From positions 1 to 47,553 of the forward strand of contig JAQWIW010000030.1 of the NCBI GenBank assembly GCA_029248665.1: 47,553 bases of DNA, in the 5' to 3' direction. Made by a program: the position numbers and the translations under genes. The DNA comes from Opitutia bacterium (GTDB taxonomy: Bacteria > Verrucomicrobiota > Verrucomicrobiia > Opitutales > Coraliomargaritaceae). A model generated the notes under the pieces. The model was not told the DNA's origin, made no database searches, and worked only from the letters and a program-made list of their open reading frames with translations. Positions within the stretch are counted from its first letter, which is position 1, and each line of letters begins with the position of its first letter. This document shows, in pieces, positions 21,315 through 24,517 of this stretch.

Positions 21315-22223
21315 ATGGAAACAACACTTTTAGTACTCGCAGCTGGAATGGGCAGTCGATACGGCGGACTCAAACAAATTGATGCGATTAGCGATGATGG
21401 AAAAGCCATATTGGATTATTCAATAGATGATGCGATACGAGCAGGATTTACTTCGATTGTTTTTGTTATACGAAAAGATTTTGCTGAAGAATTTGATGCA
21501 AAGATTGGTGCCCGCTATAAGTCAAAACTTTTAATTCAATACGCTCACCAATCAATCGGAGATCTTCCTGAGCCTTATTCCTGCCCAGAAAGCCGAAGCA
21601 AACCTTGGGGAACCGCTCAAGCGATTTGGGCTGCACGTGATTTAATTCATACCCCATTTGCCGTCATTAACGCTGATGACTTTTACGGGCGAAACGCCTT
21701 TAAGCAAATGCAGAAATTTTGCGAAACTATGCCTAAAGAACAAAGCCAACCCTTGTTTGCCGGCTTAGCCACATACGAACTCAACCATACTCTATCTGAA
21801 AATGGCACCGTAAATCGCGGAGTTTGCACACTTAATGAAGCCCAACAGCTAGTGAAAATTGAAGAACATACAGAGATTCAAGTTCTTGAAGCTCAGAGCA
21901 TAGTGGGGAAAAATGCTTCTCAACAGGTCACAGAGCTTTCTCCCTATACTCCTGTATCTATGAATTTTTGGGCCTTCTCTCCAAATATTTTTATCTTTAT
22001 TGAAAAATATTTTGCTGAATTTCTAGAAGCTCATATCGATGATCCTAAATCAGAATGTTATCTACCTGATGCGATAGATGCATTAATTCAGTCTCATACA
22101 TTAAACTGTAAAACTATTGAGACCCACAGCCAATGGCTTGGAATTACTTACCCCCAAGATAAAGTAGAAGTAAAAAAAGCTTTAGCAGAAATTACCCAAA
22201 AATGCCCCTATTTTGAAGATTGA
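21315..22223 (+). CDS. NTP-transferase family nucleotidyltransferase, substrate unknown
   Basis: The protein (302 residues) has the sugar-nucleotidyltransferase fold: LAAGMGSRYGGLKQ near the N-terminus is the G-x-G-x-R-x-G-x-x-K loop, and VINADDFYGRNAF has the metal-binding Asp. KPWGTAQAIWAARD matches the base-recognition region. It is therefore likely to make an NDP-sugar or NDP-alcohol. It lacks the lengths and C-terminal beta-helix of GlmU, GlgC or ManC. It follows menA by 4 bases, a pairing that does not suggest a substrate. Its last 16 bases overlap the end of the convergent PDZ-protein gene. No partner sugar-modifying enzyme is adjacent. Confidence 0.85.
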   Translation: METTLLVLAAGMGSRYGGLKQIDAISDDGKAILDYSIDDAIRAGFTSIVFVIRKDFAEEFDAKIGARYKSKLLIQYAHQSIGDLPEPYSCPESRSKPWGTAQAIWAARDLIHTPFAVINADDFYGRNAFKQMQKFCETMPKEQSQPLFAGLATYELNHTLSENGTVNRGVCTLNEAQQLVKIEEHTEIQVLEAQSIVGKNASQQVTELSPYTPVSMNFWAFSPNIFIFIEKYFAEFLEAHIDDPKSECYLPDAIDALIQSHTLNCKTIETHSQWLGITYPQDKVEVKKALAEITQKCPYFED

Positions 22224-23230
22224 GAGTCGATATTAGCCGACGGTCTCTCCGTTGCTTTAATAGTAAATTCCATCACTTTACCATCTCGAAGAATCTTTAT
22301 TGGTGATAGTTGATTAATATAGGTTTTAAAAGTAGCACTCGGCAAATCTGAGATGTGGGCGATGGAAACCTCACACAATGATACAATATTATCTCCAACC
22401 TCTAATCCTGCAAGTTCAGCAGGCCCTGATTCATTAATCTTTGAAATATACACATTATTTTTATTTTGATCTGAAATATTTTCCCTCACCTCCAAACCAA
22501 TCCATCCTCTAAGCGATTTACCGCTAACCATTAAATCTTCTTTCACTCGAGCCAAAGCACTGACTGGCAAACAATAAGAGCCATTCATATCCGGAATAGA
22601 GGCAATAGTCATGCCAATTAATCGCCCGTTAAGATCAAAAACTGGCGAACCTCCCTGACCTGACCCTATCGTGATTGATGTTCTATAATAGGCGGTCGGG
22701 AAAATACTATCCCCCAATTTCTTATCCACTCCACTAAGAATCCCAAATATAGGGCTGACATCGAAATCTAAAGGACAAGCTAAAGAAAAAACAAACGACC
22801 CTAAGGCAATATTCTGTTTTTCAAAAGTTAATGGAACAACACCAAAAGCTTTAGGCTTATTTATCAAACGCAATAATGAAATATTAGTGACTGGATCATG
22901 CCCTATTGCCTCTGCTGGATATACCGTATTTTGGTATTCAATCCCTATTTTATAAGCACCTAATGCCCGACTCGCATTCACTAAGACATGCCCTTCTTTA
23001 CTGACAAAAAAGCCAGTGCCTATTCGCAAATTGATTTGAGATGGCTTATCTTCAGTTTCTTGCTGGCGGAAAGCAGCCTTCACTCGAACAATAGCCGACT
23101 CGTATTCATCATAAATACGATACAAATCTTCTTGGAGCGACTGGCTCGCCGCATAAACAGTATTAGACGTTAGTAAAAAGCTAAACGCTGAAAAACAAAA
23201 TAGTGATACTGAAGCGAATTTTATGCGCAT
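22208..23230 (-). CDS. HtrA-like trypsin-fold/PDZ protein lacking the catalytic triad (pseudoprotease)
   Basis: A 340-residue exported protein with a signal peptide (residues 1-27, ending VYA), an HtrA-type chymotrypsin-fold domain (about 45-235) and one PDZ domain (about 240-328). Aligned by eye with HtrA, the His of the TNNHVV motif is Ser87 (VNASRAL), the Asp of the DLAVL motif is Asn116 (TNISLLRL), and the Ser of GNSGGPL is Gly193 (GQGGSPVF). All three catalytic residues are missing, so it should not cut peptides. I chose ATG at 23230; a longer frame from TTG at 23269 would add a repeat-encoded stretch before a good signal peptide. Third gene of the sigma operon, 28 bases after the membrane protein. 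It may act as a peptide-binding sensor in the periplasm. Confidence 0.85.
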   Translation of the reverse strand: MRIKFASVSLFCFSAFSFLLTSNTVYAASQSLQEDLYRIYDEYESAIVRVKAAFRQQETEDKPSQINLRIGTGFFVSKEGHVLVNASRALGAYKIGIEYQNTVYPAEAIGHDPVTNISLLRLINKPKAFGVVPLTFEKQNIALGSFVFSLACPLDFDVSPIFGILSGVDKKLGDSIFPTAYYRTSITIGSGQGGSPVFDLNGRLIGMTIASIPDMNGSYCLPVSALARVKEDLMVSGKSLRGWIGLEVRENISDQNKNNVYISKINESGPAELAGLEVGDNIVSLCEVSIAHISDLPSATFKTYINQLSPIKILRDGKVMEFTIKATERPSANIDSQSSK

Positions 23231-23242
23231 TAATCCAAAAAA

Positions 23243-23270
23243 CAAATTAGAAAGCAAATTAGAAAGCAAA
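23243..23270. repeat. 12-base tandem repeat at the membrane protein/PDZ protein junction
   Basis: The unit CAAATTAGAAAG occurs 2.4 times in tandem. It covers the stop codon of the membrane-protein gene (ending 23259) and the leader of the PDZ-protein gene. It produces the LLSNLLSN stretch of the longer TTG-started frame, which is one reason to prefer the later ATG. Confidence 0.85.
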
Positions 23271-23789
23271 GCTCGCTAACTGAGTATATTGATTTGAGAT
23301 TCTTAATGAATCTGATGATGCATAAACTGGAGCATCTGAATAATCGACGGTATCACCAATCGCTACAGATATAGCATCTGCTTCAAAATCATAGGCTTCA
23401 GATGCACCTTTTATTGAAATAATTTCAACCGCATAATCCTTTTCTAGGGCGTCGTTTCCAACAACTGCATAATCCACTAATTCTTCGGCACTTAATAATG
23501 CTTCATTTGGAAAGGCCAGCTCAGAAAGAAAAGCATTACGCTCAGAACCCAGATTAAGATACAATGCCATCCCCAGCATAAATATCAATCCGCAGGCCAT
23601 AGAAGCAGAAAGCACGTACTTATTCACCAAACTTGCAATGTTGTAATACCAAGGTTCTTGCCTAATAAAGGTCTGTAATGCCCGTGCTTGCAACTTGCTA
23701 TCAAATTTTTCCCAGAATAAATCATCTGGTTGCTCTGCCTTTTTCAATTTCAGCAGATCTTCTAAACTAGGGTGTTTTTTATTGTCCAT
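23259..23789 (-). CDS. Putative anti-sigma or sigma-linked single-pass membrane protein
   Basis: A 176-residue protein: an acidic/basic N-terminal cytoplasmic part with QPDDLFWEKFDSKLQARAL, one transmembrane helix at about residues 59-79, and an acidic periplasmic C-terminal part rich in Asp, Ala and Ser. It lies 21 bases downstream of an ECF sigma factor and upstream of an HtrA-like PDZ protein, which is where anti-sigma factors usually sit. I see no zinc anti-sigma motif (HxxxCxxC), so it would be an RseA-like or unclassified type. Function is inferred from topology and position only. Its last codons fall in a 12-base tandem repeat. Confidence 0.65.
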   Translation of the reverse strand: MDNKKHPSLEDLLKLKKAEQPDDLFWEKFDSKLQARALQTFIRQEPWYYNIASLVNKYVLSASMACGLIFMLGMALYLNLGSERNAFLSELAFPNEALLSAEELVDYAVVGNDALEKDYAVEIISIKGASEAYDFEADAISVAIGDTVDYSDAPVYASSDSLRISNQYTQLASFAF

Positions 23790-23810
23790 ACTAATTTAAA
23801 TATAAGTGAA

Positions 23811-24458
23811 TTAGCTAATATAGTCTTGTAAAAATGATTGTAGCATCTTTTTCGCGTAGTGTAAACGAGACCGTACCGTTCCCTCACTAGTCTTCATTAT
23901 GTCTGCAATTGATTTATGATTCATACCTTCAACTTCGTGTAAAATAACAACAAGTCTATGTTTAGGAGACAATTTTTGCAGTGCTTCGTTCAATTTTTCT
24001 TGGAGTTCTGTTAAAAGAGCCCCTTTTTCCGTCTTTGTTTTTGCCGTAAAATACTCTAAAATCTCACTACTTACCAACGTTTCATCAATTGTTTCATAGT
24101 TTATGAAACGTTGCTTTTTCGCTTTCTTAATAAAAGTAATGCTTGAATTGACCGCTATTCGGTAAATCCAGGTGTAAAATGAAGCCTGCCCCCTGAATCG
24201 ATTTATCGACTGAAACGCCTTAATAAAGACTTCTTGAGTAATATCTGTAGCATCTTCACGATTGCCTGTCATGTTATAAATAATAGAAAATAAAGACTGG
24301 CGGTATTTTTGGACTAATTGATTGAAAGCCGATACCTCTCCATTCTGCACACGCTGAACGATGGCCCAATCTAAATCACGATTAGACACAATCGCATTGC
24401 CAACACTTTTTTTCGCATCTGAAATAAACTCATTGGCAATAGTTTTGCTTATTTTCAT
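23811..24458 (-). CDS. ECF sigma factor, RpoE-like
   Basis: A 215-residue sigma70-family protein with only regions 2 and 4. Region 2 (about 45-110) has DATDITQEVFIKAFQSINRF and ASFYTWIYRIAVNSS. Region 4 (about 155-208) has LSPKHRLVVILHEVEGMNHK followed by the helix-turn-helix IADIMKTSEGTVRSRLHYAK. The layout is that of RpoE/SigW-type factors that answer envelope or oxidative stress. A 30-residue N-terminal extension of low similarity precedes region 2. It is the first gene of a three-gene leftward operon with the membrane protein and the PDZ pseudoprotease, and it diverges from the ketoacyl-synthase cassette. Autoregulation is likely for this class, but no clear ECF promoter was found. Confidence 0.93.
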   Translation of the reverse strand: MKISKTIANEFISDAKKSVGNAIVSNRDLDWAIVQRVQNGEVSAFNQLVQKYRQSLFSIIYNMTGNREDATDITQEVFIKAFQSINRFRGQASFYTWIYRIAVNSSITFIKKAKKQRFINYETIDETLVSSEILEYFTAKTKTEKGALLTELQEKLNEALQKLSPKHRLVVILHEVEGMNHKSIADIMKTSEGTVRSRLHYAKKMLQSFLQDYIS

Positions 24459-24487
24459 GTTTTTTAGTAAAAATAAATTTAAAAAAA

Positions 24488-24517
24488 TTGCAAAAGAAAA
24501 GATTTAGCCAATATACA
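24488..24517 (+). promoter_or_regulatory. Candidate promoter for the ketoacyl synthase cassette
   Basis: TTGCAA (24488-24493) and TATACA (24512-24517) are separated by 18 bases in the divergent gap between the sigma factor and the ketoacyl synthase. Each box matches the sigma70 consensus at four of six positions. The predicted start would leave a leader of roughly 65 bases. In such AT-rich sequence this could be chance. Confidence 0.25.

Follow-up and report, generated by a model that had tools for sequence, protein, structure and literature searches.

A triad-less HtrA-like protein as the conserved third partner of a sigma/anti-sigma gene pair in Verrucomicrobiota

Sigma/anti-sigma switches, sensing by HtrA PDZ domains and HtrA pseudoproteases are each already known. 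The closest described systems are sigma-E/RseA/RseB/DegS/RseP of E. coli and AlgU/MucA/MucB/AlgW of Pseudomonas, which share with the locus considered here an RpoE-like ECF sigma factor, a single-pass anti-sigma factor, a periplasmic regulator in the operon, an HtrA PDZ domain, C-terminal aromatic peptides and an RseP encoded in the genome. Unlike these systems, the present locus has a triad-less HtrA fold and not RseB as the third protein, the candidate PDZ-type ligand is carried by the anti-sigma factor itself, and the only active HtrA is of the DegP type and lies outside the operon. The CnrH/CnrY/CnrX operon of Cupriavidus likewise encodes a sigma factor, a short anti-sigma factor in the membrane and a partner in the periplasm. 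That partner, CnrX, is an unrelated metal sensor. The system also differs in having neither a PDZ domain nor a tail ligand; the structure of CnrH-CnrY is mentioned in PMC7406223.

In the MucE-AlgW pair, a protein that does not belong to the outer membrane bears a C-terminal WVF, which the PDZ domain of an HtrA protein recognises in sigma control (PMC8545111). MucE activates a live protease, whereas here the anti-sigma factor carries the tail and the HtrA protein is dead. The magnetosome protein MamO is also similar in that an HtrA-derived protease domain is no longer catalytic and has been retained in a different role, but MamO retains His and Asp with Thr at the nucleophile position, binds metal, carries a transporter domain and is not tied to a sigma factor. 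In the literature covered, which is incomplete (for example, without the 2021 ECF reclassification), no triad-less HtrA was described as a fixed third partner of a sigma/anti-sigma pair, nor was a conserved PDZ ligand reported at the C-terminus of any anti-sigma factor; within the same coverage, no paper on envelope-stress signalling in the phylum Verrucomicrobia was found.

The window, i.e. the whole stretch of 47,553 nucleotides analysed (contig JAQWIW010000030.1, assembly GCA_029248665.1, Opitutia bacterium), contains the three genes head to tail on the minus strand in the order sigma factor, membrane protein, HtrA-like protein (Table 1). Both this order and the Pfam matches agree with the original prediction, which put the HtrA-like gene in third place, behind the genes for an ECF sigma factor and a protein that spans the membrane once. 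The sigma gene matches Sigma70_r2 (7.8e-19) and Sigma70_r4_2 (1.6e-14) and has regions 2 and 4 without region 3, as is the rule for ECF factors; its top NCBIfam matches are RpoE-like and fall under the equivalog cut-offs. The only shared candidate promoter element found upstream of the sigma gene resembles TTGCAAT and occurs mainly in loci of the own family. The element TTTGCAAT lies about 35-40 bases 5' of the sigma start (window ~24459-24510, minus strand) and is common to many own-family loci; it is a possible promoter element. The sequence TTGCAATT was found upstream of the sigma gene in 10 of 117 loci against 0.8 expected.

Table 1. Features of the sigma/anti-sigma/HtrA-like operon (positions in the window)
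Feature	Position	Strand	Basis or remark
ECF sigma factor, 215 aa	23811..24458	-	sigma-70 regions 2 and 4
Membrane-anchored anti-sigma factor, 176 aa, single TM	23259..23789	-	zf-HC2 in orthologues and common motif
Predicted transmembrane segment, ~aa 59-77	23559..23615	-	hydropathy peak here and in orthologues
Proposed PDZ ligand: C-terminal end of the anti-sigma factor, YTQLASFAF	23262..23288	-	conserved terminal F/Y
Triad-less HtrA-like protein, 340 aa, ATG at 23230	22208..23230	-	signal peptide, inactive trypsin-like domain and a single PDZ domain
Probable signal peptide, cleavage near VYA-AS	23153..23230	-	from reading the translation
Ser87 at the catalytic His position	22970..22972	-	alignment with DegP and 112 orthologues
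Asn116 at the catalytic Asp position	22883..22885	-	alignment
Gly193 at the catalytic Ser position	22652..22654	-	GQGGSP in place of GNSGGP
PDZ carboxylate-binding loop RGWIGLEV	22487..22510	-	same site as the R-G-Y/W-I/L-G-V loop of active HtrAs

The HtrA-like protein has the S1C arrangement of a trypsin-like domain followed by PDZ (Trypsin_2, 57 bits at a cut-off of 27.6; PDZ_2, 38.1 bits at a cut-off of 27) and lacks the His-Asp-Ser triad. Residues are counted from the ATG; an in-frame TTG at 23269 would lengthen the protein by 13 residues. Alignment to solved chains of the MucD/DegP type gives the same three replacements that had been read from the sequence earlier, and the intact His, Asp and Ser searched for elsewhere in the protein are not present. 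The fold, also predicted to be kept, is retained both in the Pfam domains and in the AlphaFold2 model (mean pLDDT 82.6), which matches DegP, DegQ and DegS with Z of 22-28 over about 290 residues; with DegP 8f0a_A, VIA-align gave Z 27.9 and rmsd 3.4 over 288 residues. The protein does not belong to DegS, scoring 71.6 bits with TIGR02038 against a cut-off of 423 and being devoid of the triad. RseB/MucB sequence domains were not detected in the third gene, its matches being only to the Trypsin_2 and PDZ families.

The membrane protein of the window has no Pfam or NCBIfam match, and Pfam likewise gave none in the A2 members. Three orthologues of the middle gene from other lineages of the class (L162, L164, L168), occupying the same gene position, have at their start a zf-HC2 domain that scores higher than the Pfam cut-off. 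Hx3Cx2C is the classical anti-sigma (zf-HC2) domain. In these orthologues it is followed by a motif of the form LLALKRYExPxxxYFxxFLxEFHxRL, and the protein of the window begins with the same motif: LLKLKKAEQPDDLFWEKFDSKL. One of the three zf-HC2 queries was approximate at its end, with the match lying before it, and another of the searches used the exact sequence. Because the orthologues carry zf-HC2 before the shared motif, the middle gene is identified by its sequence as an anti-sigma factor, which adds an identity to the single-pass membrane protein originally seen beside the sigma gene. The zf-HC2 domain that marks class I anti-sigma factors is found in these orthologues and absent in the window's protein, which is consistent with a zinc-free form. 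In the model of a relative's read-through product, residues 47-86 form one long helix that covers the transmembrane region.

Loci with the dead-HtrA protein family were read in 137 cases, and 112 of them contain all three genes in the same order; several of the exceptions are masked sequence or contig ends. The full trio ranges over more than 20 families of the own order. It extends to further orders of the class, whose genomes presumably belong to Verrucomicrobiota, and in one genome it lies beyond the class. Named relatives, drawn only from the own family, include Puniceicoccaceae and other Opitutales/Opitutia, among them Coraliomargarita sp. Of 57 relatives, 40 carry the HtrA-like gene together with the middle gene and 11 carry neither, the HtrA-like gene being scored as present only if it was well above the level of the genome's DegP. 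Five of the 57 have the HtrA-like gene without the middle gene; in four of these the upstream DNA is masked or missing, and the remaining one shows just a weak middle-gene match at another place. Giant open frames with an HtrA domain (G033, G037, G219) were considered as fusions and rejected, as they are runs of N in masked sequence. Long N runs directly upstream of the HtrA-like gene, giving such false giant frames, occur in L066, L068, L136, L159, L094 and L099, where they conceal the sigma and anti-sigma genes.

None of the 112 trio loci has His at the His position. The Asp position holds Asp in one locus and mostly Asn (84) or Gly (24) in the others; 82 of the 84 orthologues of the own order have Asn, while other orders mostly have Gly. 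Ser is kept at the Ser position in 16 of the 112 loci, every time without His and Asp. When 66 triad-less proteins and 21 active ones were placed in a tree calculated with the catalytic columns left out, the two groups were split with 100/100 support. The same context with a full triad was sought and not found, and the ordinary full-triad HtrAs of the phylum that were sampled have no adjoining sigma or anti-sigma gene. The dN/dS ratio of the HtrA-like gene against its three closest relatives is 0.08-0.10 (~0.09), that of the membrane-protein gene 0.13-0.16 against the same three, and that of the sigma gene ~0.04 against two of them. Selection on the dead HtrA gene is purifying. The fixed replacement residues, the single clade and the dN/dS of about 0.09 thus make it a kept pseudoprotease and not a decaying copy, and the recurrence of the same substitutions in the same trio across the class excludes chance. 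Of the earlier view that the triad was lost through selection for binding, the selected and stable character of the loss is borne out, and binding itself may be the function retained. Both the conservation of the substitutions in related genomes and the cohesion of the three genes had been named beforehand as checks of that view.

A further feature, absent from the original prediction, gives the proposed interaction between the anti-sigma factor and the dead HtrA a concrete form. The anti-sigma factor ends in Phe or Tyr in 103 of the 112 loci, with terminal aromatics found in 3/110 of the flanking HtrA-like genes and 1/112 of the sigma genes. Among 55 representatives with tails less than 25% identical, 49 are aromatic-ended (background 8%, P = 9e-47). 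In other orders, the conserved tail is longer, roughly YVLDxxPVSY[DE]xxxxF, with Phe at position 0 in 27 of 28 and a hydrophobic residue at position -2 in 26 of 28. Conservation is low in the periplasmic part of the anti-sigma factor, for which disorder is predicted (stalk pLDDT ~28). The PDZ domains of DegS and AlgW take large residues at positions 0 and -2 (YQF, WVF; PMC8545111), and the tail shows, as a sequence pattern, the DegS/AlgW-type ligand form hydrophobic-x-aromatic-COOH. The loop of the dead HtrA has the carboxylate-binding pattern [W/Y]-x-G-x in most loci, with W, Y or F at position 243 in most of the 112 and Gly245 in 107. This suggests that the anti-sigma tail is a ligand of the dead HtrA's PDZ domain. 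In family f7, a small lineage, the tails are non-aromatic (CER, SKI, MWN, ARK) and the loop aromatic is gone too; in 15 loci, an aromatic tail is found together with a non-aromatic position 243. Covariation of tail and loop gives a Fisher P of 0.005, a statistic that ignores phylogeny, and is not significant with phylogenetically independent pairs, which are few.

At the nucleotide level, a 12-base tandem duplication (TTTGCTTTCTAA twice, 23247-23270, minus strand) lies at the end of the anti-sigma gene in the window, repeating the end codons and the stop in frame as F-A-F-stop twice. Relatives of the genus have a partial second copy.

The genome encodes one RseP, one full-triad DegP and one BamA ending in FSFGTRY; LptD was sought in this genome and not found, and BamA was the sole outer-membrane protein used as an example. 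DegP (NHHVV, KTDIAVL, GNSGG) is the only other Trypsin_2 protein and is encoded elsewhere. It also has an aromatic end (YLVLRF), and the DegP and BamA genes lie close together (L071:4739-6235 and L071:21-2078). The complex with the periplasmic part of the membrane protein, proposed earlier as a check, was approached through a natural read-through in a relative (L074): its anti-sigma and HtrA genes were folded as one chain, with TAG read as Ser. In this fold (pLDDT 59, pTM 0.37), where the tail is not a free carboxylate, the tail was not confidently docked.

The resemblance of the inhibitor's tail to a ligand of the dead HtrA's PDZ domain suggests an envelope-stress switch that works by gripping and not by cutting. 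On balance, it is probable that the operon is a switch of this type, in which the anti-sigma tail is bound by the dead HtrA's PDZ domain, a contact that gates proteolysis of the anti-sigma factor. We infer the binding, the shielding, the competition by outer-membrane proteins and the direction of the effect as follows. The dead HtrA would stand in for the RseB of sigma-E signalling, its PDZ domain gripping the tail while the residues just before the tail may lie in the dead active-site groove. Held like an uncleavable substrate, the anti-sigma factor would be shielded from site-1 proteolysis. Unfolded outer-membrane proteins, aromatic-ended too, could compete for the PDZ domain and free the tail, after which the anti-sigma factor would be destroyed by DegP-type and RseP-type proteases and the sigma factor released. 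An envelope-stress circuit with a dead protease as the putative sensor of misfolded peptides had been proposed before; what now stands firmly is the fixed trio, the selected loss of the triad and the identity of the anti-sigma factor, while the circuit itself keeps its conditional form. The broader idea of an ancient class-wide Verrucomicrobial stress system, with a protease turned clamp, an outer-membrane-protein-like tail and unfolded outer-membrane proteins competing for the PDZ domain, is offered tentatively and is rather doubtful as a whole.

The same components could be arranged differently. If the dead HtrA were an adaptor, it would bind the tail and hand the anti-sigma factor over to an active protease under stress, for which the active DegP of the own genome could serve as the partner; there is a precedent in MamO, a catalytically dispensable HtrA homologue needed for MamE-dependent proteolysis (PMC4794232). 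RseB, the periplasmic regulator of the rpoE operon, is however a negative regulator (PMC8103513), and the adaptor role appears unlikely; the sequence itself favours neither shielding nor delivery by the dead HtrA. It is quite unlikely that the tail serves the active DegP as a degron or ligand, with the dead HtrA acting as a separate co-regulated periplasmic chaperone or binder. HtrA PDZ domains generally accept C-terminal aromatics as ligands and an active DegP is present, but genomes that lose the dead HtrA also lose the tailed anti-sigma factor, and the two are adjacent across the class, while DegP lies elsewhere.

Sensing of a small ligand or metal by the dead domain, as in MamO and with the PDZ domain having no signalling role, could be thought of from the invariance of His81 and His111 in the own family. 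Other orders keep the system, yet there His81 is mostly Thr and His111 often Ala, which makes this reading very improbable; a His pair conserved over the whole class was looked for and not found. The loss of all three catalytic residues might, finally, point to a decayed duplicate of an active HtrA. This is refuted by the low dN/dS, the conserved replacement residues, the single ancient clade and the synteny, and its probability is negligible.

The new elements here are the identity of the middle gene as an anti-sigma factor and its conserved PDZ-ligand-like C-terminus. A pseudoprotease has been fixed for a very long time at the centre of a sigma/anti-sigma switch in a major phylum. If the contact between tail and PDZ domain is true, the logic of DegS is reversed: the inhibitor would carry the peptide signal, and the HtrA protein would hold rather than cut.

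The genome of L204, from outside the class but of the same phylum, has all three genes; its HtrA is triad-less and its tail ends in NVDYSF. Family f16 (L143-L146, L149) has a diverged member in which the triad positions are occupied by F/Y, T and A/T; it falls within the triad-less clade and has no adjoining sigma or anti-sigma genes. Two strong matches to the dead-HtrA family are present in the genomes G400, G425, G442 and G480. The second copy in G442 has a full triad, and the copy read in G400 (L222) is a triad-less member of a trio with the tail NDPFRF.
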